From positions 1-64,000 of the forward strand of contig NZ_CANRLT010000001.1 of the NCBI RefSeq assembly GCF_947631555.1: DNA of 64,000 nucleotides. The letters are read 5' to 3'. This document shows positions 17,155-35,080 of this stretch, piece after piece. This stretch comes from an uncultured Mailhella sp. (GTDB lineage: Bacteria > Desulfobacterota > Desulfovibrionia > Desulfovibrionales > Desulfovibrionaceae). The position numbers were made by a program, and so were the translations under genes. Each line of letters opens with the position of its first letter. The stretch's first letter is position 1. Below the pieces are notes generated by a model. That model was not told where the DNA came from. It did not search any database and saw nothing but the letters and a program-made list of their open reading frames with translations.

Positions 17155-18501
17155 ATGGCAATCTGGAAAGAAGAAGCAGAGGCGCGGAGTGCCATAAAGG
17201 ACATGGTTGCAGAGTATTACAGACAGTTTAAGTCTTCTGTCAGACCATTCACTCCCGGAGACAGGATCAGTTACGCCTCCCGCGTTTTTGATGAAAGGGA
17301 AATGTGTGCGCTGACGGATGCCATGCTCGATTTCTGGCTGACGACAGGACGCTTTGCTTCTGAATTTGAAAGAGAATTTGCTTCCTGGCTCAACGTCCGT
17401 TTCGCCCATCTTGTGAATAGCGGTTCTTCCGCCAATCTGATCGCGTTTATGGCGCTCACCGCGCCGGAGCTGGGTGAGCGGCAAATACGGCCGGGAGATG
17501 AGGTCATCACCGTGGCCTGCGGTTTTCCCACCACCGTGACGCCCATTCTTCAATATGGCGCTGTCCCTGTCTTCGTGGACGTGACCATTCCGCAGTACAA
17601 TATTGACGTTTTGCAGCTGGAAGCTGCGCTGAGTGAAAAGACGAAAGCCGTGATGGCCGCCCACACGCTGGGAAACCCTTTCGATCTTGCTGCGGTGAAG
17701 GCCTTCTGCGAAAAGCATGGTCTCTGGCTTGTGGAAGACAACTGCGATGCCCTCGGCTCGCAGTATACGCTGAATGGCGAAACCCGGTTCACAGGCACCT
17801 GGGGCGACCTGGGAACATCCAGCTTCTATCCGCCTCATCACATGACCATGGGGGAAGGCGGCTGCGTCTATACAAACAATTCCCGTTTAAGCCGCCTTAT
17901 CCTCAGCTTCAGAGATTGGGGGCGTGACTGCGTCTGTCCTTCCGGTCAGGATAATTTTTGCCGGCATCGCTTTACCGGTCAATTTGGCGAGCTTCCCCAG
18001 GGCTATGACCACAAATATGTATACAGTCACTTCGGCTATAACCTGAAAGTAACGGATATGCAGGCTGCCGTGGGCTGTGAGCAGCTGAAAAAGCTCCCGA
18101 ACTTTATCGAACGCCGTCAACATAACTGGCAGCGCCTGCACGAGGCCCTGTCCACCGCTTCCGACCGACTCATCCTCCCGGAAGCGGCTCCCTGCAGCAG
18201 CCCTTCCTGGTTTGGATTTCTTATCAGCCTGCGGCCGGAATCCGGGCTGAAGCGCAATGCCGTCACGTCCTTCGTGGAATCTCGCAACATACAGACACGT
18301 CTTCTGTTCAGCGGGAATCTCATCAAGCATCCCTGCTTTGACCAGATACGCGGAACCTCGGCGTACCGCATTGCGGGCAGTCTCGCCAACACGGACTTTA
18401 TTATGAACAACAGTTTCTGGGTGGGGGTCTGTCCCGGCATGACGGATGCCATGATCGACTATGAGGCGGAAACCATTCTGGAAGCTCTGGAGGCAAGATA
18501 A
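17155..18501 (+). CDS. rfbH: CDP-4-keto-6-deoxyglucose 3-dehydrase (E1)
   Basis: This PMP- and [2Fe-2S]-dependent enzyme removes the C3 hydroxyl of CDP-4-keto-6-deoxyglucose. The fold is that of sugar aminotransferases, but [14 protein letters not shown] (about residues 224-237) has His where aminotransferases carry the PLP-binding Lys, the hallmark of E1. The cysteine cluster [11 protein letters not shown] for Fe-S binding follows. I chose ATG 17155 (ribosome site AGAGG) over the upstream track start, which lies in the Nudix gene, giving 448 residues. The usual reductase partner (E3, RfbI/AscD) is not in the window. The stop codon overlaps the next start. Confidence 0.93.
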
Positions 18502-19355
18502 TGTCCCTCAGCAGTAAGCGTGAGCTTGAACAAATGGCGCTCAACATACGTTTGGGTATTATACGGGCCATCACATCAAATCATGGCGGACACATAGGCG
18601 GTTCGTTCGATCTCGCTGAAATGCTGGCCGTGGTCTATTCGGACTTCATGCGCGTCAATCCGGAAAAGCCGGACTGGGATCAGCGCGACTTCATGATTTT
18701 TTCTAAGGGACATGCCGGCCCCGCCCTTTACGCAGCTCTGGCGCTGAAAGGCTTTTTCCCAGAAGAACGCCTTGAGAATCTGAATAATCCCAATTCGCTG
18801 CTTCCGGGGCACTGCGATCGTAACCATGTGCCAGGCGTTGACGCGACTACGGGCAGTCTCGGCCAGGGGCTTTCCATCGCCTGCGGGGCGGCCCTTGCCG
18901 GGAAACTGCGCGGCACGGATCAGAGGGTGTTTTGCGTAACCGGTGACGGGGAATCCGCGGAAGGCCAGATATGGGAGGCCGCGCAGTTTGCTGCGCATTA
19001 CAGTCTGGACAATCTGATCGCCTTTCTGGACTGGAACAAGATGCAGATAGACGGCAGCAATGACGAAGTCATGCGCCTTGGGGATCCTGTGCGCAAATAT
19101 CAGGCGTTCGGCTGGAATGCCTGCCTTGTGAAAGGGAATGAGGTCATGGCCATTCAGCGTGCCGTGCGCCGGGCTGTGGAAGAGCCGAACGGCAAGCCCT
19201 CCATGATTGTGCTGGATACGGTAAAGGGAGAGGGGGCGCGCTGTATTGTGGAGATGGCAAACAACCACTGCATAGGATTCTCTGATGAATTGTGCGGCAA
19301 GGTCATGGAGGAACTGCGGGAACAGGGGCGGAAGCTCGGCATGGAGGTGGAATAA
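18501..19355 (+). CDS. split transketolase, N-terminal (ThDP/PP) subunit, first pair
   Basis: This is the pyrophosphate-binding half of a two-subunit transketolase-like enzyme (284 residues). It has GHIGGSFDLAEMLAVVY, the FSKGHAGPALYAAL motif, GSLGQGLSIACGAAL and the ThDP motif GDGESAEGQIWEA...LDWN. Its partner lies one base downstream. Transketolases move two-carbon ketol units between sugars. Standing directly after rfbH, this pair is more likely to act on a CDP-keto sugar or to make a special sugar than to serve the pentose phosphate pathway. A distinct second pair lies at 22.5 kb. Confidence 0.9.
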   Translation: MSLSSKRELEQMALNIRLGIIRAITSNHGGHIGGSFDLAEMLAVVYSDFMRVNPEKPDWDQRDFMIFSKGHAGPALYAALALKGFFPEERLENLNNPNSLLPGHCDRNHVPGVDATTGSLGQGLSIACGAALAGKLRGTDQRVFCVTGDGESAEGQIWEAAQFAAHYSLDNLIAFLDWNKMQIDGSNDEVMRLGDPVRKYQAFGWNACLVKGNEVMAIQRAVRRAVEEPNGKPSMIVLDTVKGEGARCIVEMANNHCIGFSDELCGKVMEELREQGRKLGMEVE

Positions 19356-19356
19356 G

Positions 19357-20325
19357 ATGAAGATCCGCTATACCGGGCAGAAGGCTGAAAAAGAGGTCTT
19401 TCAGGTTTTTAATGAAACCATGCGGCAGCTCATCGAGCAGGATGCAAGGGTCGTCTATCTGGATGCCGATCTCATGGGTTCGCTGAAAACACAGGAGCTT
19501 TGGAAACGTTATCCCGGGAACGTCCTGAACACCGGCATCCAGGAAGCCAATATGGTGGGCGTGGCCTGCGGGCTTTATCTGAATGGCTTTAAGCCCTATG
19601 TTCACAGCTTTTCTCCCTTTGCCAGCCGCCGTGTGTTTGATCAGGTTTTTCTCAGTGTGGGCTATGGCCGGAAGAGCGTGCGCGTGATCGGGTCGGATGC
19701 GGGGATCATGGCCACACACAATGGCGGCACCCACATGTGCTTTGAAGATATCGCCATGATGCGGACGGTACCGGGCGCGTGTGTGGTTGACATCAGCGAT
19801 CCGGTCATGTGCGGGGCATTTCTGAAAATGACGAGGGATCGCCCCGGCCTGACCTATATCCGTATGCCGCGCCGTGACTTGCCGGATATCTATCCGCCGG
19901 AAACAGCGTTCGCAGAAGGCAGGGGAATGCTGCTTCGGGAAGGTTCGGACATTACGCTTGTCGGCTGCGGCATCATGGTCGCCACCTGCCTTCAGGCGGC
20001 AGAACTTCTTGCCTCTGACGGTATAGAGGCTCGCGTCATAGATATTGTCACGGTAAAGCCTCTGGATGAGGAATTGCTCCTGGACAGCGCAGGAAGGACC
20101 GGAGCTGTGGTCACGGCCGAGAACGCCAGTGTCCTGGGCGGACTGGGCAGCGCTGTCGCAGAATACCTTTCCTCTGTTCATCCTGTTCCCGTGCTGAAGG
20201 TTGGGATCCAGGATTCTTTCGGCCGGGTAGGGACGGAATCTTTTCTGCGGAAGGCGTACGGTCTCACGCCGGAGTCTGTGGCCCTGCGCGCCAGGGAAGC
20301 TCTGAAATTGAAACAAGCCCTCTGA
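19357..20325 (+). CDS. split transketolase, C-terminal (Pyr) subunit, first pair
   Basis: This is the pyrimidine-binding and C-terminal half, about 322 residues from the ATG at 19357 (the track start lies in the previous gene). It has the catalytic Glu region NTGIQEANMVGVACGL that activates ThDP, YVHSFSPFASRRVFDQV, and a C-terminal domain with VVTAENASVLGGLGSAVAE. Stop and start with the N-terminal subunit are one base apart, as expected for a stoichiometric complex. An aldolase-like gene follows. Confidence 0.9.
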   Translation: MKIRYTGQKAEKEVFQVFNETMRQLIEQDARVVYLDADLMGSLKTQELWKRYPGNVLNTGIQEANMVGVACGLYLNGFKPYVHSFSPFASRRVFDQVFLSVGYGRKSVRVIGSDAGIMATHNGGTHMCFEDIAMMRTVPGACVVDISDPVMCGAFLKMTRDRPGLTYIRMPRRDLPDIYPPETAFAEGRGMLLREGSDITLVGCGIMVATCLQAAELLASDGIEARVIDIVTVKPLDEELLLDSAGRTGAVVTAENASVLGGLGSAVAEYLSSVHPVPVLKVGIQDSFGRVGTESFLRKAYGLTPESVALRAREALKLKQAL

Positions 20326-21353: not shown

Positions 21354-22519
21354 AAAATATTATTAATTATGAAGCAAATATTGATTGCTTTGCGATGCAT
21401 AGGAATGTGAAATTGAACGCTCTTTATGAGCAGCGGGCCTCTGATTATGACGGAAAACCATGGATTACCGTTTTTATTCCGACATACAAAAGATATGACC
21501 TGTTTAAAGAAGCGTTGAAAAGCGTGATGAGGCAGAAGCCTGTTGATTTTCAATGGGATATCCTGGTTGTGGATAATGAACCGTATGAAGGGACTCCCAA
21601 TGCCGTGGAAGAGTATATCAGAACGCTTTCCGATATAACCATTCGCTACTTCCGTAATACGACAAATTTACGTCCCGGAGATAATTTTAATCGGGGAATC
21701 TATCTGGCGCGGGGAGAGTGGGTCATGATGCTTCATGATGATGATCTCTTATTCCCGAATAGTCTTGAAAAGATGGGCAGGGCCATACGCTTTCTGGAAA
21801 AGCAGGATAAAAAGCCTCTGGGGGGAATAGCCGCACAATATCAGTGTTTCTTACATGATCCGGAACAACCTCATGGAAACGATACCATGTTTAGACAGGT
21901 TGAAAACTTGGTATTAAATGAGCCGATGTCGTGGAGATTTTATAAATTAACGCACGCGAAAGTCTTGTTCACCGGTCATCCTGGAGGAAATATCCCCAGT
22001 ATAGGAACAACGTACAGGAGAGATGCGGTGCTTGAGGTCGGTGGATTCAATGATGATTTTGGAATTTCCGCCGATCTTATACTGTTTTATTGTCTGGAAA
22101 ATAAATTTTCAGTATATTCTACTTTGGAACCATATGGTTTTTACAGATTTGGAATAAATACAATGGTAAAAAAAGAATCAACATATAAAACAATTAAGGC
22201 AGGTTTTGATTTTAGAGAATATGTATATAATAAAAATATATTTCATAAATTATGGGGCTGGCTATTCAGGAGTGCTCATTACTATTTTTTCACAGAAGCA
22301 GTTCTCAATCAAAGGAAAATTGGTTCCAGAAAGTTTATACGATTCAGCGATTATGCTTCAATTTATGATAAAAAACCAAATAAATTTTTTTATAAACACA
22401 TATATAAACATGGAGTATTGAATGCATATAACAAGATAAAACGTTGGGAAGTTAAACGCCTTGAAAAAAGAGCAAGGCAGGAAGGTTTGGTGAAGAAAAA
22501 TGAAGAATATTTTTCGTAA
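21350..22519 (+). CDS. family 2 glycosyltransferase, AT-rich gene
   Basis: The product is a GT-A glycosyltransferase of 389 residues. WITVFIPTYKRYDLFKEAL opens the fold at about residue 37, ILVVDNEPYEG follows, and the LHDDD motif near residue 128 is the metal/donor site. It resembles the product at 24.9 kb in its long N-terminal lead (about 35 residues before the fold), so the two may be paralogues adding related sugars. Base composition is much more AT-rich in the 3' half. It overlaps the aldolase by four bases and the next transketolase subunit by 20. Confidence 0.88.
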   Translation: MKNIINYEANIDCFAMHRNVKLNALYEQRASDYDGKPWITVFIPTYKRYDLFKEALKSVMRQKPVDFQWDILVVDNEPYEGTPNAVEEYIRTLSDITIRYFRNTTNLRPGDNFNRGIYLARGEWVMMLHDDDLLFPNSLEKMGRAIRFLEKQDKKPLGGIAAQYQCFLHDPEQPHGNDTMFRQVENLVLNEPMSWRFYKLTHAKVLFTGHPGGNIPSIGTTYRRDAVLEVGGFNDDFGISADLILFYCLENKFSVYSTLEPYGFYRFGINTMVKKESTYKTIKAGFDFREYVYNKNIFHKLWGWLFRSAHYYFFTEAVLNQRKIGSRKFIRFSDYASIYDKKPNKFFYKHIYKHGVLNAYNKIKRWEVKRLEKRARQEGLVKKNEEYFS

Positions 22520-23294
22520 TCTTCGCAAGGATGCTCTGTATCTGTCCCATAAATGTCGGGACGGCAACCTTCAGAGCGTGTTTTCCTGTCTTGATATTGT
22601 CTGGGTGCTGTATGACAGGATCATGAACTGGTCTCCGGAAAAGGCACAGGACGCGGACCGTGATTTCTTCATCATCAGCAAGGGGCAGGCAACGCTGGCC
22701 CTGTACCCAGTGCTGATTGAGAAGGGGTTCTTTGACAAGGAAGAGGTAGCCTCCGAAATCGGCCTGTTTAACAGCCGCTATTGCATACAGACGGATGTCA
22801 CCAAGTTCTCCGGCGGCGTGGAAAACAGCGCCGGCTCGCTGGGGCATGGGCTGCCGTTTGCCGTAGGTATTGCCTATGCCGGCAGGATTAAAGGGTCGCC
22901 CTCTCAGACCTTTGTGCTGTGCGGTGACGGCGAGTTCTGTGAAGGCACCATGTGGGAAGCCTGCCTTTTTGCCGCGGCGAAGAAGCTGGATAACCTGTGC
23001 GTGATCGTGGACGACAATGATTCCGTCGGGGCCATGATCGACATGGGCAGCATGCGTCTCAAGCTGGAAGCCTTCGGTTTCGATGTCTTTTCCGTCAACG
23101 GGCATGATCCTGATGCGCTGGAAGCCGTGTTCCGCAGGGCGGGAGGCCTCAAGAACGGCAGGCCCAAGGCCGTGCTGGCCAGAACCGTGCGCGGATACGG
23201 CAGTCCGACCATGATGGAGCACGACATCTGGTTCCACAAGGCGCCTGACGCCGAAGAACTGGCGATGCTGGAGAAGGAGGTGGAGGCGTTTTGA
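22500..23294 (+). CDS. split transketolase, N-terminal subunit, second pair
   Basis: The product is 264 residues with the ThDP motif GDGEFCEGTMWEACLFAAAKK...DDND, SKGQATLALYPVL (in place of SKGHA) and AGSLGHGLPFAVG. The change of the conserved His of SKGHxxPALYA to Gln suggests altered donor or acceptor handling compared with the first pair. It overlaps the preceding glycosyltransferase by 20 bases and the C-terminal subunit by four. The two pairs are clearly different sequences, not a recent duplication. Confidence 0.88.
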   Translation: MKNIFRNLRKDALYLSHKCRDGNLQSVFSCLDIVWVLYDRIMNWSPEKAQDADRDFFIISKGQATLALYPVLIEKGFFDKEEVASEIGLFNSRYCIQTDVTKFSGGVENSAGSLGHGLPFAVGIAYAGRIKGSPSQTFVLCGDGEFCEGTMWEACLFAAAKKLDNLCVIVDDNDSVGAMIDMGSMRLKLEAFGFDVFSVNGHDPDALEAVFRRAGGLKNGRPKAVLARTVRGYGSPTMMEHDIWFHKAPDAEELAMLEKEVEAF

Positions 23295-24172
23295 GGCGTG
23301 CCTTTTTGAAGCGTGTGGCGGACATGATCCGCAAGGAAGAGGACACGGCGTTCTTCACTGTGGATATCGGCATGTGGGCCATCCGGGACGTACTGGCCGA
23401 ATTTCCCGAGCGCTGCATGAATGTGGGCATCTACGAGGATGGTATGTTCAGCATCGCGGCGGGTATGGCCAGCCGCGGTCTCGTGCCGACCATTTTCGGC
23501 ATTCAGCCCTACCTCATCGAGCGCACACTGGAACAGATCAAGATGGATCTTGCGTACCAGAAGCGCGGCGTCAACGTGGTCGGGACCGGCGCGGCTGTGG
23601 ATTATTCCAAATACGGGTATTCCCACTACTGCGCCGAGGATGTGCAGCTCATCAAGATGCTGCCGGGCTGCGAGTTCGTGGCTCCGGGCACGGCAAAGCA
23701 GTTTCTCCAGCTTTTCAACGCCTCGTACCGGAATGGACATCCCACTTTTTTCCGGATCAGCGATCACCCCAACCTGCGGTATGACCCGGATGTTCGCTTC
23801 GGAAAGGCCGAGGTGATGCAGACGGGAAGCCGGGCCACGGTGCTGGCGGTTTCCGTCATGCTGGACATGGTCATGGAAGCCTGCGCCGGGGAAGATGTCA
23901 CCGTGCTCTATTACACCACGCTGGAGCCTTTCGACTGGGAAACACTGGCGGAGAACTGCCCTTCCGGCAAGCTTTTGCTTGTTGAGCCGGAGTATGAAGG
24001 GAGCCTGCTTCACGACGTACACAAGGCCCTGCCGGGCCGCGCCCTGCGGGTGGAACAGGTGGCCTTTCCGCGCGAAATTTTCCGGAATTACGGAACCTAT
24101 GACGAAAAGATGCGGCATTACGGGCTGGGTTCTTTGAACATCGCCGCGAAGCTGAGAGCGTTGCGGGACTGA
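23291..24172 (+). CDS. split transketolase, C-terminal subunit, second pair
   Basis: The product is a 293-residue partner of the preceding gene. It probably starts at TTG (23291), overlapping the upstream TGA, with GGAGGTGGAGG as ribosome site. The catalytic Glu region reads MNVGIYEDGMFSIAAGMA, where a transketolase has the ThDP-activating Glu. GYSHYCAEDVQLIKMLPG follows, as in 1-deoxyxylulose synthase and transketolase Pyr domains. With the N-terminal subunit it should form a heterotetramer. Its substrate is unknown. A short-chain dehydrogenase follows directly. Confidence 0.88.
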   Translation: MRRAFLKRVADMIRKEEDTAFFTVDIGMWAIRDVLAEFPERCMNVGIYEDGMFSIAAGMASRGLVPTIFGIQPYLIERTLEQIKMDLAYQKRGVNVVGTGAAVDYSKYGYSHYCAEDVQLIKMLPGCEFVAPGTAKQFLQLFNASYRNGHPTFFRISDHPNLRYDPDVRFGKAEVMQTGSRATVLAVSVMLDMVMEACAGEDVTVLYYTTLEPFDWETLAENCPSGKLLLVEPEYEGSLLHDVHKALPGRALRVEQVAFPREIFRNYGTYDEKMRHYGLGSLNIAAKLRALRD

Positions 24173-26047: not shown

Positions 26048-26099
26048 TTATGGCTAAGCACAGCTTTCGTCATACCTGTTTAATGCATAAGGAGGAATC

Positions 26100-27206
26100 A
26101 TGTCTCTGAAGAACTGGCTGCATACCATGAAGGGCAAGTGCCTGCCGCCGTCAGCGCGTAAGGTTATGCGTATGGAAAAGACGCTTCTTTGCCGTTTGGA
26201 TGAATTGTCAGCGCAGCACGGCTATCTCGATAGGCAGATTAAGGCACTATCGGCAAGAAATGATCTGCTGTTCTGGTTTTCGCAGATGCGCGAAGGTGAA
26301 GGCCTCGCACGAACCAAACGAAATTTCTTTGAAGGGCTTGTCCCCGAAGAAGGCCTTATTCGGGGAACGCAGCTTGTTATGTTGAATTTAATGGACTTCA
26401 TTGATGATGTTTGTACAGAAAACGGGCTTACCTATTTTTTATCTCATGGCACACTTATAGGCGCGGTCAGGCATAAAGGCTTTATACCATGGGATGATGA
26501 TACTGATGTCAGCATGATGCGCGAGGACTTTTTAAAATTTAAGAATATCATAAAAACGCAGTCGCGGTATCGTCTTGTGGATTATTATGAGGCAGGATGC
26601 AGAAAAGAGTCCTGTGGTCGTTTTGCAAAATTGGTAGATACAAATCTGCCTTTGCATATTTTTGTTGATGTTTTTGTTTATGACTGGGAGGACACGAAGA
26701 GTGACGAGGAAGCCTCTCGGAAATATTATGCCAAAAGAACAGAATTAGGTGAGAGAATATGGGAGACAGCGCAGAGATCAGGCTGCGCGGCAGAATCTCG
26801 GCCCATTGAAGACCCGGCTATTAAATCTCAGCTTGATGCTGTTTTTGATGAGTATGTCTATCCTTATCCAAAAGAGGGAACAGGCATTCAGTGGGGAGTG
26901 GATTTGTTTTGGAAGCGAAATATTTATTGCATAAAGAAAGAATATGTCTTTCCTGTCAAACGCATGCCGTTTGAGGCAAATGTTCTTAGAGAGGACGAGC
27001 GAGCGTCTGGTAAAAAAGAAAAGAAGAGAGAATTTTGTGTGCCGCAGAATCCTGAAGTGCTTCTCTCTCTCGCTTATGGTAACATCATGGAAATTCCAGC
27101 TCGCTGTTATGCCTATTTTCATGCAAAGTATTTTGATTTTTACGGCAAGGAAGACATTATAGAGGAATATCTTAAAACATGGGGCTGCGCTGATCAAAAG
27201 GGGTAA
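26100..27206 (+). CDS. LicD-family phosphotransferase, copy 1
   Basis: LicD proteins transfer phosphorylated groups such as phosphocholine from CDP carriers onto surface glycans. The core LicD motif is HGTLIGAVRHKGFIPWDDDT (about residues 118-137), a nucleotidyltransferase-fold metal site. The product is 368 residues. Residues 1-100 (MSLKNWLHTMK...) and the last about 80 are nearly identical to the second copy at 27.5 kb. The centre, where acceptor choice may lie, is different. It is the first gene of a duplicated unit that also contains the APS-kinase-like gene. No choline genes (licA, licB) are present, so transfer of a different group, possibly phosphoramidate, is inferred. Confidence 0.85.
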   Translation: MSLKNWLHTMKGKCLPPSARKVMRMEKTLLCRLDELSAQHGYLDRQIKALSARNDLLFWFSQMREGEGLARTKRNFFEGLVPEEGLIRGTQLVMLNLMDFIDDVCTENGLTYFLSHGTLIGAVRHKGFIPWDDDTDVSMMREDFLKFKNIIKTQSRYRLVDYYEAGCRKESCGRFAKLVDTNLPLHIFVDVFVYDWEDTKSDEEASRKYYAKRTELGERIWETAQRSGCAAESRPIEDPAIKSQLDAVFDEYVYPYPKEGTGIQWGVDLFWKRNIYCIKKEYVFPVKRMPFEANVLREDERASGKKEKKREFCVPQNPEVLLSLAYGNIMEIPARCYAYFHAKYFDFYGKEDIIEEYLKTWGCADQKG

Positions 27207-27286
27207 GGTATGGAAGGTAGGGGCATGGTTAAATCCATGCTCCCTTTACAACATTGCCGAACTGAAATTCACCAGGGGGCAAGACA

Positions 27287-27472
27287 GTGGTTATCTGAAT
27301 AATCGGGCTGTCCGGGATGGGAAAGACCACCCTTGCGGAAGAAGTTGTGCGCCTTGCCAGACAGGACGGCAGGACCGTGACGCTGCTGGATGGCGATGTC
27401 ATGCGCAGAGTGTGGGGCGACAACCTCGGGCATATGCTGGAGGTGCGCAAAAAAACTCAGGCCGTGTCCACG
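27287..27472 (+). pseudogene. truncated duplicate of the APS-kinase-like gene
   Basis: The sequence matches the 5' end of the intact gene at 28665. The start ATG is changed to GTG, codon 4 (TGG in the intact copy) is TGA, a base is missing from the A tract near 27450, and the match breaks off after about 60 codons. The P-loop GLSGMGKTT is still readable. It is the leftover of the tandem duplication. Confidence 0.9.
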
Positions 27473-27512
27473 AGAGGATACGTCAACCCTGTTTAATGCA
27501 TAAGGAGGAAAC

Positions 27513-28592
27513 ATGTCTCTGAAGAACTGGCTGCATACCATGAAGAGTAAGTGCCTGCCGCCGTCGGCGCGTAAGGTTATGCGTATGGAAAAGACGCTTC
27601 TTTGCCGTTTGGATGAATTGTCAGCGCAGCACGGCTATCTCGACGGGCAGATTAAAGCGCTATCGGCAAGAAATGATCTGCTGTTCTGGTTTTCGCAGAT
27701 GCGCGAAGGGGAAGGCCTAGCGCGAACCAAACGAAATTTCTTTGAAAGACTTGTCCCCGAAGAAGGTCTTATTCGGGGGGGGCAGCTTATTATGTTGAAT
27801 TTGTTGGATTTTTTGGATGATGTTTGCACAGAAAACGGACTTGCCTATGTTTTAGCTCATGGAACACTCTTAGGCGCGGTCAGGCATAAGGGCTTTATTC
27901 CATGGGATGATGATGTTGATATATTCATGATGCGTGAAGACTTTTTAAAATTCGAGAAAATAATAAAAAATCAGTCAAGATATTGTATTATGGATTTATA
28001 TTTTGTGGATGATAAAAAAAATAAATGTGCTCGTAGTAAAGTGTTAAGAGATACAAAGATTAATTTGAATATTTGGATTGATATACTAATTCTTGACAAC
28101 ACAATAATTGATGATGAGTCATCCCGTAAAAAACAAGCCAAAAGAATAGAATTAAGTAAGAAAGTGTGGGATATTACGCAAAAATCAGGCTGGGCGGTAA
28201 AGTTTTACCCTATTTATAACCTGGCTATTAAATCTAAACTTGATGCTGTTTTTGATGAGTATATATATCCTTGTCAAAAAGAGGGAACATTTATTGAGTC
28301 CGTGTGGGGCTGGTATTCATTTAAGAAAGAAGATGTTTTTCCCGTCAAACGTATGCCGTTTGAGGCAAATGTTCTCAGGGAGGATGAGCGAGCGTCTGGT
28401 AAAAAAAAGAAAAAGAGAGAATTTTGTGTGCCAAAGAATCCTGAAGCACTTCTCTCTCGTTATGGTGACATCATGAAAATTCCGGATGGACCTTATTCCT
28501 ATAGACATGCAAAGTATTTTGATTTTTACGGCAAGGAAGACATTATAGAGGAATATCTTAAAACATGGGGCTGCGCTGATCAAAAGGGGTAA
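27513..28592 (+). CDS. LicD-family phosphotransferase, copy 2
   Basis: This is a paralogue of the 26.1-kb gene (359 residues) with the LicD core HGTLLGAVRHKGFIPWDDDV. The N-terminal about 140 residues and the C-terminal about 80 are nearly the same as in copy 1. The middle is strongly AT-rich and different, which looks like replacement by recombination rather than slow drift. A G8 tract at 27775-27782, absent from copy 1, lies in the reading frame at about codon 88, so slippage would cut the protein short. The ribosome site is AAGGAGG. It may transfer the same group as copy 1 to a different acceptor. Confidence 0.85.
   Translation: MSLKNWLHTMKSKCLPPSARKVMRMEKTLLCRLDELSAQHGYLDGQIKALSARNDLLFWFSQMREGEGLARTKRNFFERLVPEEGLIRGGQLIMLNLLDFLDDVCTENGLAYVLAHGTLLGAVRHKGFIPWDDDVDIFMMREDFLKFEKIIKNQSRYCIMDLYFVDDKKNKCARSKVLRDTKINLNIWIDILILDNTIIDDESSRKKQAKRIELSKKVWDITQKSGWAVKFYPIYNLAIKSKLDAVFDEYIYPCQKEGTFIESVWGWYSFKKEDVFPVKRMPFEANVLREDERASGKKKKKREFCVPKNPEALLSRYGDIMKIPDGPYSYRHAKYFDFYGKEDIIEEYLKTWGCADQKG
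27775..27782 (+). repeat. G8 tract in LicD copy 2
   Basis: Eight G residues code for part of Arg-Gly-Gly. The paralogue reads CGGGGAACG at the same place (four Gs). This is a candidate slipped-strand phase-variation site. Confidence 0.55.
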
Positions 28593-28664
28593 GGTGTGGG
28601 CATGGTTAAATCCATGCTCCCTTTACAACATTGACGAACTGAAATTCACCAGGGGGGCAACACA

Positions 28665-29726
28665 ATGGTTATCTGGATAATCGGACTGTCCGGAGTGGGT
28701 AAGACTACTCTTGCTGAAGAAGTTGTGCGCCTTGCCAGGCAGGACGGCAAGACCGTGGCGCAGCTGGATGGCGATGTCATGCGCAGCGTATGGGGCGACA
28801 ACCTCGGGCATACGCTGGAGGATCGCAAAAAAAACGCCGACCGTCTCCACGGATTATGCCGATACCTGGAAGGAGAGGGCGTGCATGTGGTGGCACCGGT
28901 TCTATCCCTGTTTCAGGAAACTAGGGACAAGAACAGGCGGGAACTGCGCGATTACTATGAGGTATACATCAAGTGCCCCATGGAGAACCTGGTTCTGCGG
29001 GATTCCAAGGGACTGTATGCTCGGGCAAGGCGGGGTGAAATCGAGCTGCCCGGAGTCAACATGCGTTTTGAAGAACCATGCGCTCCCGATCTGGTTATTG
29101 AAAATGCGGGTTCCCGTAACGAATTGCTGAGTTACGCCCCCATGCTGGCTCAAAAGCTGGTCCGGTCGGGAAGGATGGCCTATTCCTACACTGCGAGGGA
29201 TTTATTGCATGAGCCGGAAAACTATTTTTACGCGCCGTTTGGCGGCAAGGATTTTGTCAAGGCATGGAAGCGGTGCCGGGAAGAATCATTGACCGCCTGG
29301 GCCGGAGCGGAAGCCATGGGACCCTGCCCCGGCGATTTGACGGAAACGGAGCGTGAATTGTGGCGACTGGCTTCAACAGGCCAGAAACCGACAGGGAAGG
29401 ATGCCGTCCTGATTGAAGGATTGCTCCGGCGTTTTGAGGTCAGTAAAAAACTGCCTGCCACTCTGGTGCCGCCACGGTATTCCTGTGTGCGGGCGAGTGA
29501 CCGTTTGACCCGTCCTCATGCCTACGCCTGCCTTGGGGCGATTCTGGCCTTGAGCGCTGCGGAAGAACCGGACATGCGCCAGCTCAACTGCCTTTTGAAA
29601 ATCAATGACCTTCTTTGCTCGCTGTCCAGCCTTCCCTCTGAACTTTTTCCCCTTGCCCGCCGCGCTCTTGCCGGCGAGCTGACTGCCGTTCAGGGCTGGG
29701 CGCAAAGGAGCCATCTATGCAAATAA
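28665..29726 (+). CDS. APS-kinase-like protein, probable cytidine diphosphoramidate kinase with C-terminal extension
   Basis: The N-terminal about 170 residues are an adenylylsulfate-kinase fold: P-loop GLSGVGKTT (residues 7-15), LDGDVMRS, DRKKNADRL, and a lid with SKGLYARARRGEI. In C. jejuni the APS-kinase homologue Cj1415 instead phosphorylates cytidine diphosphoramidate in the capsular phosphoramidate pathway. All the other pathway enzymes are found downstream here, and there is no ATP sulfurylase or polysaccharide sulfotransferase gene nearby, so I favour that role. The C-terminal about 180 residues are an extra domain that I do not recognise, not part of the basic kinase. It overlaps the next gene by ten bases. 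A broken copy lies at 27.3 kb. Confidence 0.75.
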   Translation: MVIWIIGLSGVGKTTLAEEVVRLARQDGKTVAQLDGDVMRSVWGDNLGHTLEDRKKNADRLHGLCRYLEGEGVHVVAPVLSLFQETRDKNRRELRDYYEVYIKCPMENLVLRDSKGLYARARRGEIELPGVNMRFEEPCAPDLVIENAGSRNELLSYAPMLAQKLVRSGRMAYSYTARDLLHEPENYFYAPFGGKDFVKAWKRCREESLTAWAGAEAMGPCPGDLTETERELWRLASTGQKPTGKDAVLIEGLLRRFEVSKKLPATLVPPRYSCVRASDRLTRPHAYACLGAILALSAAEEPDMRQLNCLLKINDLLCSLSSLPSELFPLARRALAGELTAVQGWAQRSHLCK

Positions 29727-30451
29727 GCGATGTTGCGCTTGTATGCGCGGACAATGTTCGGGCGCGCTGCTATATGCAGGCATTCACGGCGCGGAAACTG
29801 TTGCCCTCCTTCTGCTTGATATTGCCCGCTGCGGAATCGGGAAATCCGGACCCGAGACGGAGGCGTCTGTCACCGGCAGAGGTTCCCTGGGGCAGATTTG
29901 ATCCTGAGCGGGGCATCCGGGAGCTGTGTGAGGAAGCGGGTGTCCCTTGCGAGTTTGCGCCGGCTCATGACATCAACGCGCCGGAGACGATACGGCACAT
30001 TGCCGAACTTACACAGCAGGTCTGTGTGTATGCGGGATTTGGCGGCGTTATTCTACGGGCCGATCTTTTAAACTGCGGGAAGAAATTTCTGCACGCCCAT
30101 GGCGGCTGGCTTCCCTCTTATAAAGGAAGTACCACTAACTATTACAGTGCGCTGCAGGAAAACTTCTGTGCCGCTTCCGCCATGTTCCTGAATGAGGAGA
30201 TCGACCGTGGCGTGGTGTTGTGCCGCCGCCGCTTTGCTGTGCCCGCAGATATGTCACTCATGGATTATGTGCATGACAATGTTTTCCGGGCCGAAGTGCT
30301 GTGCGAAGTGTTGGCCGCGCATGTGAAAAGCCGGGGCTGGCCGGAGTCCGTTGTCGAAAATACCCCGACCAATCCCTATTTCGTCATGCATCCGCTTTTA
30401 AGACATATGGCTATTCTTGGTAGTAAAGGAGCAGATTTGCCATGCGCATAA
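29717..30451 (+). CDS. formyltransferase-fold protein
   Basis: The 244-residue product has the core of the methionyl-tRNA/sugar N-formyltransferase fold: LHAHGGWLPSYKGSTTNYYS near residue 132 and ALQENFCAASAMFLNEEIDRG near 148. The usual N-x-H-x-S..P catalytic motif appears as HAHGGWLP. The His and Pro are kept, but the Asn is replaced, while the Asp of IDRG is present. A role in formylating an amino group, or in a related acyl or phosphoramidate transfer, is possible. It lies between the kinase and the methyltransferase and overlaps both, which ties it to this part of the pathway. Confidence 0.65.
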   Translation: MQISDVALVCADNVRARCYMQAFTARKLLPSFCLILPAAESGNPDPRRRRLSPAEVPWGRFDPERGIRELCEEAGVPCEFAPAHDINAPETIRHIAELTQQVCVYAGFGGVILRADLLNCGKKFLHAHGGWLPSYKGSTTNYYSALQENFCAASAMFLNEEIDRGVVLCRRRFAVPADMSLMDYVHDNVFRAEVLCEVLAAHVKSRGWPESVVENTPTNPYFVMHPLLRHMAILGSKGADLPCA

Positions 30452-31245
30452 CGTATCGAAAAAATGATTCGCTTGCTTACTGGACACAGCGTTGGGCCGA
30501 TGTTGAAGCGGACGAACCGATGGAAAACCGTGCCTCATATCCCTTGAAATACGCTCTGGAAGCAGTGGCCCGCTCATCAGCGCCAAGGGGTGGACGTATC
30601 TGTGAAGCCGGGTGCGGCAATGGGCGGCTGGTACGCTATTTTATGCGCAGCGGCTGCAATATAAGAGGTTTTGATTTTATTCCCGAGGCCATCAGTAAAA
30701 TTAAAAGCGTTGAACCTGATGCCGAAGTGGAAACAGGAGACATTCTTAATCTTTCCTATCCCGATGAATATTTTGATACCTTTCTTGCCTTTGGATTGTA
30801 TCACAGCTTGCCGTATGAACTTCAGGATCAGGCGATGCAGGAAACGTTCAGGGTTTTAAAACCTGGTGGCGTTTTGTGTGCATCGTTTCGGGCGGACAAC
30901 CTGTGTACTCGTATATCAGACTATCTGCGGCAACCTGCCCGGAAGGAAGAGAAAAAGAAGTTCCACAAGCTTAATCTGACACGTCGTGAATGGGAACATG
31001 TTTTACTTCGGAATGGTTTTACTGTAGAAAAGATGGACTGTGTTGTTAATATGCCTATACTCTATAAATTTAAATGCTTTCGACATGCAACACACAAAAA
31101 TTTTGATGAACATAAAGGTCGTTGTGAAGGGTATTTGCTTAACTTACCTGGTAAATTACTGTGGAAAGTTTTATATATAATTTTCGGGGGGGGGAGATGT
31201 GTAATGTTTTTGTTGTTCAGGCTCGAAAAATCAAGAGTTAAATAG
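30442..31245 (+). CDS. SAM-dependent methyltransferase, possible phosphoramidate O-methyltransferase
   Basis: This is a class I methyltransferase (267 residues). Motif I is CEAGCGNGRLVRYF (about residue 53), the acidic residue ends strand 2 in GFDFIPEAI, and LKPGGVLCASF follows, as in Methyltransf_11. The C. jejuni phosphoramidate cluster has methyltransferases at the same relative place, next to the glutamine kinase gene, so it may add the O-methyl group; this is inferred from position. The 3' end is AT-rich and has a G9 tract at 31186-31194. Losing one G would truncate the C-terminus at once. Confidence 0.8.
   Translation: MRITYRKNDSLAYWTQRWADVEADEPMENRASYPLKYALEAVARSSAPRGGRICEAGCGNGRLVRYFMRSGCNIRGFDFIPEAISKIKSVEPDAEVETGDILNLSYPDEYFDTFLAFGLYHSLPYELQDQAMQETFRVLKPGGVLCASFRADNLCTRISDYLRQPARKEEKKKFHKLNLTRREWEHVLLRNGFTVEKMDCVVNMPILYKFKCFRHATHKNFDEHKGRCEGYLLNLPGKLLWKVLYIIFGGGRCVMFLLFRLEKSRVK
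31186..31194 (+). repeat. G9 tract near the 3' end of the methyltransferase gene
   Basis: Nine consecutive Gs encode Gly-Gly-Gly about 17 codons before the stop. A loss of one G brings a TAA into frame within about five codons. This is a candidate contingency locus. Confidence 0.55.
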
Positions 31246-31269: not shown

Positions 31270-33651
31270 ATGAATACACCTGCCTTTTCTTTCACCTCCA
31301 AGGCCGACACTCTGCTTGCCCTTTCTGCCCACGAAGAGTTGCACATTCCGCCTGTGCATGTTTTTACCGTGGCGCAGTGGCAGTCCGGACAGGAGGCTGT
31401 CCTCCGCAGGCTGGCGGAGGCATTTTCCCCGGAGGAAGTGCTGGCCGTGCGCTCATCCTGCCGCAGAGAGGATTCTGCCGAGTCATCCGCCGCCGGAGCC
31501 TATCTCTCCATCCTCAATGTTGCGCTCTCGGATCCAGTCGCCCTGCGCGATGCCGTGGAGAAGGTCATGGTCTCCTACGGCGGGGCGGAACCCGATGATC
31601 AGGTGCTGTGCCAATCCATGATCCGGAATGTCACCGTCACCGGCGTCATCATGACCCGTGCGCTCAATGACGGCGCACCGTATTACGTCATCAACTACGA
31701 TGATGAATCGGGCCGGACAGACACCATCACGGGCGGACACAGCGTCAGCAAAACGGTTTCCGTGTACCGTGGGGTAAGCGACCGCGACTTTGATTCTCCC
31801 CGCCTGCGCGGTTTTGTAGCGCTGGCCCGCCGCCTGGAAGAGCTGTGCGGCAGTGACAGCCTGGACATCGAATTCTGTCAGGACGCGGATAATGTCCTGC
31901 ATCTGCTCCAGGTCCGGCCCATGTGCACACAGCGGCACTGGCCGGAACAGAACGAGTCCATCCGCGAGTTCATCGGGTATGGCGCGGACTTTATCGCGGC
32001 GCGAACCGGCCCGTCTTCAAACCTGTTCGGACAGCGGGCCATTCTGGGAGTGATGCCGGACTGGAATCCGGCGGAGATCATCGGCCTGCTGCCGCATCCG
32101 CTGGCAAGCTCGCTGTACCGCAGCCTGATCACCGCGCGGGTATGGAGCGAAGCGAGGGAACGCATGGGCTACCGTCCCCTGCCCGCCACGGAACTCATGG
32201 TTCTGCTGCTCGGCCGTCCCTATATTGACACCCGCGCAAGCTTCAATTCCTTTTTGCCGAACGGCCTTGATCCCGTTACATGCGAAGCTCTGGTGTCTGC
32301 CTGGCTGGAACGGCTTGAGGCGCAGCCCCAGCTGCATGACAAAATTGAGTTTGAAATCGCGCAGACGGTCCTGGACTTCTGCTTTGACACTCATTTGGAC
32401 GAGCGTTATCCGGGACTGCTCAGCTCCCAAAGGCGCGAGGAGTTCCGGGACTCGCTCCGGCATCTGACCGTCCGCTGTCTGGACGAGTCTCCTTCCGGCT
32501 CCATGAAGCAGGCCTTTGACGCCGTGACCGAACTGCGCAACCGGCAGGCGGGCAGAATTCAGGTCGGGCCGGAACAGCGCCTTCCCCTGTCCGCCGTCAA
32601 CGCACTGCTGGAAGAATGCCGCGAGTTAGGTACCCTGCCCTTTTCCATTCTGGCCCGCCATGCCTTCATGGCGGAAAGCCTGCTGCGCACGGCAGTGAAG
32701 CGGGGCGCGCTGCTGCCCGAGCGGATGCGGGCGTTCAAACTGTCCGTCAAAACCATTTCCGGGGAACTGTCCGGCGAATTTCTGGAGGTGTGCAAGGGCC
32801 AGAGGGACGCTTTGGGCTTTATGCGCAAGTACGGCCATCTGCGGCCGAGCAGCTATGACATCTTATCTCCCCGCTACGCGGATCGCGAAAATCTTTTCAG
32901 CGATGCGCAGGACCTTGTTGTCAGGGAACAGCCCAACGAAGTCTTTGCTCCCAGCCCGGAAGAGCGGCGCGACCTTCAGCTTCTGCTGACGGAAAGCGGC
33001 CTGCCTGTCACGCCGGAAGGTCTGTTCCATTATGCACGCCGGGCCATTGCGGGGCGGGAACTGGCCAAGTTTGTCTTCAGCCGGAATCTGTCGGACGTGC
33101 TGGAAATCGTGGCGCTGTGGGGCGAGGATATGGGGTTCAGCCGGGACGACGTGTCCTTCATGGATATACAGGCCATTCTGGACTCGATTACCCATCTCTG
33201 CCCGGAGACACCCAGGGAGCATTTTGCCCGGCATATAGCGGCCAACAGGGAAATTTTTGCCAAAAGCGAAAATATCAGACTCGGCTACCTGATCCGCTCC
33301 GTCAGAGATGTTTATATCGTTCCCCAGCACAGGGCCGAACCCAACTACATCGGCGCGGGCCGGATAGAGGGAAGCCTCGTGCGGTTGTTTGCCGACAGCC
33401 CCTGCAGCATGGATCTGTCGGGAAAGATTGTGTGCATTGAAAACGCCGATCCCGGCTTTGACTGGATTTTCACGCGACAGATTGCGGGGCTTGTCACCAA
33501 GTTTGGAGGCACAAACTCCCATATGGCCATACGCTGCGCCGAATACGGCCTGCCCGCCGCCATCGGTGTGGGCGAGCAGATCTTTCAGTCTCTGGCCGGA
33601 GCCAAAAGGGCGCTGCTTGCCCCTCAGTCTGCCACACTCAAACCCTGCTGA
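31270..33651 (+). CDS. PEP-synthase-like protein, probable L-glutamine kinase
   Basis: The 793-residue protein has an N-terminal pyruvate-phosphate-dikinase-type ATP-grasp domain (VRSSCRREDSAESSAAGAY, then DIEFCQD...LLQVRPM) and a C-terminal swivelling His domain, TKFGGTNSHMAIRCAEYG, with catalytic His751. It lacks the C-terminal PEP/pyruvate TIM barrel of PpsA. The central about 450 residues are specific. C. jejuni Cj1418, of this layout, phosphorylates the amide nitrogen of L-glutamine to start phosphoramidate synthesis. The next two genes match the following pathway steps (Cj1417 and Cj1416), so I assign it as the glutamine kinase. Confidence 0.82.
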   Translation: MNTPAFSFTSKADTLLALSAHEELHIPPVHVFTVAQWQSGQEAVLRRLAEAFSPEEVLAVRSSCRREDSAESSAAGAYLSILNVALSDPVALRDAVEKVMVSYGGAEPDDQVLCQSMIRNVTVTGVIMTRALNDGAPYYVINYDDESGRTDTITGGHSVSKTVSVYRGVSDRDFDSPRLRGFVALARRLEELCGSDSLDIEFCQDADNVLHLLQVRPMCTQRHWPEQNESIREFIGYGADFIAARTGPSSNLFGQRAILGVMPDWNPAEIIGLLPHPLASSLYRSLITARVWSEARERMGYRPLPATELMVLLLGRPYIDTRASFNSFLPNGLDPVTCEALVSAWLERLEAQPQLHDKIEFEIAQTVLDFCFDTHLDERYPGLLSSQRREEFRDSLRHLTVRCLDESPSGSMKQAFDAVTELRNRQAGRIQVGPEQRLPLSAVNALLEECRELGTLPFSILARHAFMAESLLRTAVKRGALLPERMRAFKLSVKTISGELSGEFLEVCKGQRDALGFMRKYGHLRPSSYDILSPRYADRENLFSDAQDLVVREQPNEVFAPSPEERRDLQLLLTESGLPVTPEGLFHYARRAIAGRELAKFVFSRNLSDVLEIVALWGEDMGFSRDDVSFMDIQAILDSITHLCPETPREHFARHIAANREIFAKSENIRLGYLIRSVRDVYIVPQHRAEPNYIGAGRIEGSLVRLFADSPCSMDLSGKIVCIENADPGFDWIFTRQIAGLVTKFGGTNSHMAIRCAEYGLPAAIGVGEQIFQSLAGAKRALLAPQSATLKPC

Positions 33652-33656
33652 AAAAC

Positions 33657-34304
33657 ATGACCATGATCGCCATAACCATGCGCATGATGCGCCACAGCTA
33701 CGCCAGCGGCACACAGGAAGTACGGGACGCGCTGGCCCAGGACTGGTGGAGTTTTCTGAACCGTGCCCTGCCGGGCGTGCCGGTACTGCCGCTGCCCAAC
33801 ATCGGCAGCGAAGCCGTGGCCCTGGCGCAGGCGCTTTCCGTGTCCGGTCTGATCCTCACAGGCGGGGATGACTGGGGGGTGTTTCCCCGGCGGGATGCCA
33901 CTGAAGAAGCCCTGTTCCGCTGGGCGGAACGGAAGAATTTGCCCGTTCTCGGGGTGTGCCGGGGCGCGCAGATGATCAACCGTTTTATGGGGGGGCGTAC
34001 GAGTTTCGGCTTTGGAGCAGAACATGCGGGCACCCGCCATGCGCTCCACGTCGTTCCCCGCGCCGGAGAATTGCCGCTTTCCCCGGTGCCTCCGGAGGTC
34101 AACTCCTGGCACAACGGCGGCATACGGCCGGACGATCTTGCTACCGGTCTCATCCCGTGGGCCTTTGCCCCGGACGGCAGCGTGGAAGGCTTTTGCCGTG
34201 CGGATGGCAGCATAACGGGCATCATGTGGCATCCGGAGAGGGAACAAACGGCACAGGCTCACGATATTAACCTTTTTCAGATCTTGAATCGGGGGAACGC
34301 ATGA
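33657..34304 (+). CDS. class I glutamine-amidotransferase-like hydrolase, probable gamma-glutamyl-CDP-amidate hydrolase
   Basis: The product is 215 residues with the peptidase C26 fold: LILTGGDDWG, the nucleophile Cys101 in GVCRGAQMIN, and the His-Glu pair in MWHPERE. Relatives include PuuD, but there is no polyamine gene here. In C. jejuni, Cj1417 releases glutamate from gamma-glutamyl-CDP-amidate to give cytidine diphosphoramidate, and its gene stands between the glutamine kinase and cytidylyltransferase genes exactly as here. It overlaps the next gene by four bases. An alternative start is ATG 33663. Confidence 0.82.
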   Translation: MTMIAITMRMMRHSYASGTQEVRDALAQDWWSFLNRALPGVPVLPLPNIGSEAVALAQALSVSGLILTGGDDWGVFPRRDATEEALFRWAERKNLPVLGVCRGAQMINRFMGGRTSFGFGAEHAGTRHALHVVPRAGELPLSPVPPEVNSWHNGGIRPDDLATGLIPWAFAPDGSVEGFCRADGSITGIMWHPEREQTAQAHDINLFQILNRGNA

Positions 34305-35080
34305 AAGCAGCAGGAATTATTCTGGCGGCAGGGCGCGGATCGCGCATGAGGAATCTGACGGAGGAACGCCCCAAGTGCATGGTGGAGCTGGCGGGCAAGC
34401 CCTTGCTGCACTGGCAGCTGAGTGCCCTGCGAAGGGCAGGAATCAGCAGCATTCTGGTCGTGCGCGGATATCTGGCCGGGTGCCTTGAGGCAAGCGCCGC
34501 CACGGGTGAGTTTGCCACCGCGGAAAATCCGCGCTGGGAGCGGACGAACATGCTGTCCACACTGCTGTGCGCGGACGAGTTTGCCCGTAAGAGCTTTGCC
34601 CTTGGCGTGGAGCGCCTCATCGTCTCCTATTCGGATATCGTCTATCACTGGGAGCATATAGGTGCGCTGCTGTCGTGTCCCGAGGATATCGCCATTACCT
34701 ATGACACAGAATGGGAAGCCCTGTGGACATTGCGCTTCGGCGATCCGCTGCTGGACGCGGAAACCTTTCGTCAGGAACATGGGCTGCTGCGCGAAATCGG
34801 CGGCAAGCCGGCTTCCCTGGCGGATATACACGGCCAGTACATGGGGCTTTTGAGTTTCAGTCAGACCGGATGGAACATCATGACCAAGCTGTGCGCTGAC
34901 CTGGGCGAGGCGGTGGACAAAACGGATATGACCAGCTTTTTGCGCCTGCTGCTGTCCAGGTCAATCGAGGTTGGCGCGGTGTCTGTGGCCGGCAAATGGT
35001 GCGAGGCAGACAGCGGCGCGGATATCCAGGTATACGAAAAGGCGCTGGAGCAGAGGGGCTGGTCCCATGACTGGCGATAA
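34301..35080 (+). CDS. nucleotidyltransferase, probable CTP:phosphoglutamine cytidylyltransferase
   Basis: The product is 259 residues of the LicC-like nucleotidyltransferase family: GIILAAGRGSRMRNLTEERP with K in PKCMVELAGKPLL, then the metal-binding YSDIVY (about residue 109). LicC relatives make CDP-choline. C. jejuni Cj1416 uses the same fold to attach CMP to L-glutamine phosphate. Coupling by a four-base overlap to the hydrolase gene and proximity to the glutamine kinase gene support the second role. There is no choline kinase or transporter. Confidence 0.82.
   Translation: MKAAGIILAAGRGSRMRNLTEERPKCMVELAGKPLLHWQLSALRRAGISSILVVRGYLAGCLEASAATGEFATAENPRWERTNMLSTLLCADEFARKSFALGVERLIVSYSDIVYHWEHIGALLSCPEDIAITYDTEWEALWTLRFGDPLLDAETFRQEHGLLREIGGKPASLADIHGQYMGLLSFSQTGWNIMTKLCADLGEAVDKTDMTSFLRLLLSRSIEVGAVSVAGKWCEADSGADIQVYEKALEQRGWSHDWR

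Follow-up and report, generated by a model that had tools for sequence, protein, structure and literature searches.

What do an APS-kinase-like enzyme with a long C-terminal extension, and the formyltransferase-like protein encoded immediately after it, contribute to a cluster that otherwise resembles a phosphoramidate pathway? The two genes lie in the window analysed here, a 64,000-nucleotide stretch from an uncultured Mailhella sp. (contig NZ_CANRLT010000001.1). The kinase gene (P0001, 353 residues) occupies positions 28665-29726 and the formyltransferase-fold gene (P0002, 244 residues; Pfam PF00551; hereafter FMT) positions 29717-30451, both on the forward strand and overlapping by 10 bases. 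The kinase consists of an APS-kinase-fold domain, KIN (residues ~1-150; 28665..29114; Pfam PF01583), and an all-helical domain, EXT (188 residues, 166-353; 29160..29723), which is documented by an alignment of 75 sequences and an AlphaFold2 model.

The cluster runs in one direction, on the forward strand, in the order KIN-EXT, FMT, MTb, GLNK, C26, NTase. MTb (30442..31245) is a class I SAM-dependent methyltransferase (Pfam Methyltransf_11, 63.1 bits). GLNK (31270..33651), a PEP-synthase-like protein of the glutamine-kinase family, scores 900.1 bits against NF004508 (cut-off 501), a model that presumably also includes Cj1418. C26 (33657..34304) is a hydrolase of the class I glutamine-amidotransferase fold (Pfam Peptidase_C26, 74.8 bits). 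Its best NCBIfam model, NF045546, gave 91.5 bits, under the cut-off of 250, and its position in the cluster supports it as a candidate gamma-glutamyl-CDP-amidate hydrolase. NTase (34301..35080) matches only generic NTP-transferase models in Pfam and NCBIfam (Pfam NTP_transf_3, 55.4 bits) and, as a constant member of these clusters, is a candidate phosphoglutamine cytidylyltransferase. Directly 5' of the kinase, on the same strand, is a LicD-family gene (27513..28592; Pfam LicD, 93.5 bits) that we infer to be a candidate acceptor-specific transferase. Comparison by blastn revealed a tandem duplication here (26068-27472 versus 27481-28851; 82% identity over 1413 columns), the duplicated unit being a LicD gene plus the beginning of the kinase gene. 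Thus the first copy (26068..27472) contains an upstream LicD-family gene (26100-27206, forward strand; Pfam LicD), and a broken 5' kinase fragment with one internal TGA (27290-27457) sits between the two LicD genes, which have diverged since the duplication. The DNA upstream of the LicD genes reads as a polysaccharide cluster. It contains two split transketolase-like gene pairs (18501-20325 and 22500-24172) and an aldolase-like gene (20346), labels that we assigned from sequence; these genes are possibly for an unusual sugar.

The kinase domain itself is clearly related to APS kinase (CysC). The Pfam APS_kinase model spans residues 1-146 of P0001 (115.6 bits; cut-off 21.1), and KIN shares the fold and the P-loop of CysC and exceeds the cut-off of NCBIfam PRK05541 (140.8 bits against 127). 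However, it misses that of the apsK model (119.1 bits against 138.7), is fused to EXT, and reads S-L-F at the position where three aligned solved APS kinases read S-P-Y. In the motif alignment, most of the cluster kinases have S-x-F at this position. The S-L-F motif and the apsK score fit a substrate other than APS, and, taken with the cluster context, they lead us to assign KIN as a putative CDP-phosphoramidate kinase.

A first-pass annotation of this DNA had remarked on about 180 residues beyond the APS-kinase fold that it could not place, and had proposed structure prediction and a fold search. Residues 153-353 of P0001 have no match in Pfam or NCBIfam, EXT has no credible PDB sequence match, and among 75 family members there were two isolated weak Pfam matches, neither to the window copy. 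AlphaFold2 gave a confident all-helical model of the window EXT with six helices (mean pLDDT 90.5, pTM 0.88), for which a fold search returned no PDB or BFVD match at E <= 0.001 (best PDB E = 0.93, best BFVD 0.21). Thus EXT is a confidently modelled helical domain with no counterpart among solved structures, and the possibility that it is a known domain of ordinary APS kinases is ruled out by the searches of Pfam, NCBIfam, PDB sequences and PDB folds. The 75 aligned sequences are only 17-33% identical to the window copy, yet six residues are invariant: Y22, R40, E93, K147, D150 and E173 (Y187, R205, E258, K312, D315 and E338 of P0001). In the model, five of the six are spread over four different helices, an arrangement that suggests one putative active or binding site.

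A profile built from seven EXT homologues was run on 89 FMT loci. There, EXT is usually a free-standing gene of ~180-260 residues situated directly 5' of FMT. Fusions are the exception: to the kinase in four loci (the window, L084, L099 and L102), to FMT itself in five (L026, L078, L083, L092 and L094), to the nucleotidyltransferase in one (L030) and to a radical-SAM-like protein, so labelled from sequence, in one (L029). The description of EXT as an extra domain on the kinase therefore holds for the window and three other loci, but not in general, EXT normally being a separate gene directly before FMT. A sequencing artefact is an unlikely source of the KIN-EXT fusion, which is seen again in L084, L099 and L102, although the EXT of L084 is split over two frames.

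The neighbouring protein is a weak but valid member of Pfam Formyl_trans_N (29.6 bits; cut-off 26.1), and a profile of 80 FMT homologues matches solved structures of Fmt, VioF and ArnA (best 5e-10). In known formyltransferases the Asn of the N-x-H motif positions the formyl group. In FMT this residue is H126, and it is His in all 80 aligned homologues. The same alignment shows no variation at the catalytic His (H128) and Asp (D163), nor at R191. The original observation, that the Asn of NxHxS is replaced in a formyltransferase fold that keeps its His and Asp, thus extends to the entire family. Moreover, N-x-H is kept in 8/8 unrelated formyltransferases from the same loci, so the Asn-to-His change characterizes the family and does not stem from an error in sequencing. 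At the Ser position of NxHxS, FMT has an invariant Gly (G130), a residue that also occupies this position in ordinary sugar formyltransferases, for example NIHPG. Given the absence of N-x-H and the presence of H-x-H throughout, we class FMT as a relative of the formyltransferase fold rather than as a formyltransferase. Foldseek matched the model of one naturally fused EXT-FMT protein (L094) to methionyl-tRNA formyltransferase (Fmt) with E = 3.7e-13; the pTM of this model was 0.60 and its EXT part weak, so that it supports no claim about an EXT-FMT interface.

Because the catalytic Asn is gone and EXT is fused to so many partners, one might take FMT to be catalytically dead and to form, together with EXT, a scaffold or a regulator holding the pathway enzymes together. 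We regard this as highly improbable, since H126, H128, D163 and R191 of FMT and R40, E93, K147, D150 and E173 of EXT are invariant despite the low overall identity, a pattern that an active site fits better.

How tightly are these two proteins tied to the phosphoramidate genes? The collection search started from FMT, so the counts run in the direction from FMT to GLNK. The 89 FMT loci represent many phyla; EXT was found in 88 of them, directly upstream, and GLNK, KIN, NTase and C26 in 85, 84, 81 and 80, respectively, the gaps mostly corresponding to short contigs. The linkage fails in reverse, many GLNK clusters being without FMT. An independent count covered 247 genomes of the order to which the window belongs: GLNK was present in 30 and FMT in nine, all nine within those 30 (hypergeometric p = 1.8e-9, a value that overstates independence, as the genomes share ancestry). 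When FMT was searched for on phages and plasmids, no match was found. The suggested check for co-occurrence with glutamine kinase genes therefore bore out the association, both in the FMT loci and in 9/9 FMT genomes of the order, and the converse outcome, a formyltransferase-like gene found mostly without this pathway, was not seen. A single origin of the FMT clusters was not seen on the kinase tree, which requires six changes between FMT-bearing and FMT-less clusters; this indicates that EXT and FMT have been acquired or lost together on several occasions. We conclude, with a probability of roughly 0.8, that EXT and FMT are an obligate pair within the CDP-phosphoramidate pathway and mark a separate second branch of it. 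This branch looks widespread, occurring in many bacterial phyla and in an archaeon. The complete archaeal genome concerned (L039) contains EXT and FMT and no kinase match, which raises the idea that the 3'-phosphate may be dispensable in some cases.

The nature of the other branch emerged from 27 loci with GLNK and without FMT, taken from plasmids and from the window's order and phylum, with one order contributing most of them. A SAM methyltransferase family, MTa, is present in 19 of these 27 clusters, where it is often duplicated in tandem; the 89 FMT clusters, the window's included, all lack it. MTb has the opposite distribution (19/89 FMT clusters, 0/27 of the others). Since those 19 FMT clusters carry a methyltransferase as well, FMT is no simple replacement of methylation. 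The tandem MTa genes bring to mind the pair Cj1419 and Cj1420, which are predicted methyltransferases. Both types of cluster occur in the window's own genome, the second at the end of the same contig. This second cluster (G000:C1:96064-99792; L031) shares KIN, NTase, C26 and GLNK with the first, GLNK being cut by the contig end. Where the window has EXT and FMT, however, it has two tandem MTa genes, and no EXT or FMT was found in it. The coexistence of the two types suggests two products or two acceptors.

Three plasmid clusters (from Vibrio alfacsensis, L126; a rhodobacterium; and Agrobacterium vitis, L128) have no kinase in the stretch examined; in them lie genes of the glycerophosphotransferase-like or CDP-alcohol phosphatidyltransferase kind. 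In L128 and L126, GLNK, C26 and NTase adjoin a CDP-alcohol phosphatidyltransferase or glycerophosphotransferase-like gene. This arrangement hints at a possible direct use of CDP-phosphoramidate in such clusters, perhaps in a small molecule. Two further features of the collection may be recorded here. A family without Pfam match (e.g. L051:11546-12508) is present in ten FMT clusters (L029, L042, L045, L051, L064, L069, L078, L080, L083 and L087) and in none of the FMT-less clusters. In addition, the open frame of GLNK encodes a further nucleotidyltransferase domain at its N-terminal end in L046, L048, L060, L065, L066, L068, L069, L072, L119, L120, L125 and L126, loci that have a separate gene for a nucleotidyltransferase as well.

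If EXT and FMT mark a branch, on what do they act? We found no single transferase gene that accompanies the core throughout the 89 loci. Rather, four unrelated candidate families differ between clusters: glycerophosphotransferase-like (27 loci, the gene mostly lying directly 5' of KIN), sulfotransferase-like (15), sulfatase-like (10) and LicD (3, the window included). These are common families, and the counts are uncorrected for background. Together they account for 55/89 loci, and in the stretch examined the remaining 34 have none of the four. FMT has diverged about as fast as the core enzymes (0.37, compared with 0.36-0.44) and EXT faster (0.28). In partial rank correlations, the strongest partner of EXT is FMT, and FMT is correlated with KIN as well. 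The constancy of EXT and FMT while the transferases vary, together with the core-like divergence of FMT, favours an action of the pair on the common activated donor rather than in acceptor-specific transfer.

The same data have to be weighed against the main alternative, that EXT and FMT are themselves the phosphoramidate transferase, taking the group from 3'-phospho-CDP-phosphoramidate and attaching it to a hydroxyl or amine of a sugar by means of the His-x-His and Asp residues of FMT, with EXT helping to bind donor or acceptor. Such a role would explain why the pair is common to these clusters, as no other single transferase family is, and would agree with the 34 loci in which none of the four families was seen; the changed catalytic residue of FMT would suit a new chemistry, and the faster divergence of EXT is what an acceptor-binding part might show. 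We nevertheless consider it unlikely. The acceptors must differ among flagellin, capsule and LPS-type clusters, yet FMT has diverged no more than the core enzymes, and candidate transferases are already at hand in 55 loci, the commonest of them mostly right before KIN. As to acceptors, seven Pseudomonas FMT clusters (L057, L059, L061, L074, L075, L081 and L096) are situated beside genes that we read as FlgK/FlgL-like flagellar hook genes and glycosyltransferases, which suggests that these clusters may decorate flagellin glycans.

Sugar-modifying genes, again labelled from sequence, are found near many clusters (aminotransferase in 30 loci, NeuB-like in 14), and the sugar N-formyltransferases ArnA, WbkC and VioF are among the nearest folds to FMT. 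One could therefore imagine that FMT is a sugar N-formyltransferase or an acyltransferase working on an acceptor amino sugar with EXT as helper, and that the genes travel together as the decorated sugar is always of the same kind. This is very unlikely in our estimation: the pair is linked to the phosphoramidate core and to no single sugar pathway, EXT is fused to KIN and NTase, which are enzymes of donor synthesis, and the true sugar formyltransferases of the same loci keep N-x-H and have no EXT.

We therefore return to the action of the pair on the activated donor, and infer that the EXT-FMT branch lies downstream of CDP-phosphoramidate. By homology with Campylobacter, GLNK would phosphorylate the amide nitrogen of glutamine, NTase would convert the product to CDP-glutamine, C26 would release CDP-phosphoramidate and KIN would add a 3'-phosphate. 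The activated phosphoramidate would then be the joint substrate of EXT and FMT in one conserved late step, and fusion of EXT to KIN would place it beside the maker of its substrate. Finally, a cluster-specific transferase would move the group onto a surface sugar; this would be LicD here, and a glycerophosphotransferase-like, sulfotransferase-like or sulfatase-like protein elsewhere. For the chemistry of the late step our leading suggestion, at less than even odds, is that 10-formyl-tetrahydrofolate donates a formyl group to the phosphoramidate, a reaction standing where the other branch has its SAM methyltransferase. The fold of FMT and its retained His and Asp speak for such a step, and the loss of the formyl-positioning Asn in 80/80 homologues speaks against formyl transfer of the ordinary kind. 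A fuller proposition must be considered doubtful at present: EXT and FMT would carry out a folate-dependent one-carbon acylation of the activated phosphoramidate, so that the surface glycans of bacteria and archaea would bear a formylated (N-acyl) phosphoramidate, and EXT would be a new family of all-helical enzymes. If true, it would add a new P-N modification.

In C. jejuni the glutamine kinase, 3'-phospho-CDP-phosphoramidate and the named transferases Cj1421 and Cj1422 have been described (PMC6429109, PMC3546167, PMC8437040), the final decoration steps are still treated as awaiting elucidation (PMC12409886), and the O-methyl phosphoramidate modification of sugars had, according to a 2019 review, been identified in Campylobacter only (PMC6429109). 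In the open-licence literature we found no decisive report of phosphoramidate on glycans of other organisms among the papers listed, and no paper linking the pathway with a formyltransferase was apparent from titles and abstracts, prior work elsewhere being possible. Against this background, the core phosphoramidate genes prove to be present in many phyla, in two branches distinguished by a SAM methyltransferase or by EXT and FMT. The latter are candidate genes for the missing late steps, so that the finishing and delivery of the activated phosphoramidate become directly testable.

The window cluster is like the O-methyl phosphoramidate pathway of C. jejuni (Cj1415-Cj1422) in combining a glutamine kinase, a nucleotidyltransferase, a candidate gamma-glutamyl hydrolase and an APS-kinase-like kinase in one polysaccharide cluster (PMC6429109), and unlike it in adding EXT and FMT, which C. 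jejuni lacks as judged by published gene lists. In turn, FMT resembles the 10-formyl-tetrahydrofolate formyltransferases (Fmt, the N-terminal domain of ArnA, VioF and WbkC; PF00551) in its fold, its sequence profile and its catalytic His and Asp, but is set apart from them by a His in place of the catalytic Asn, by an obligate partner in EXT and by its setting among phosphoramidate genes.
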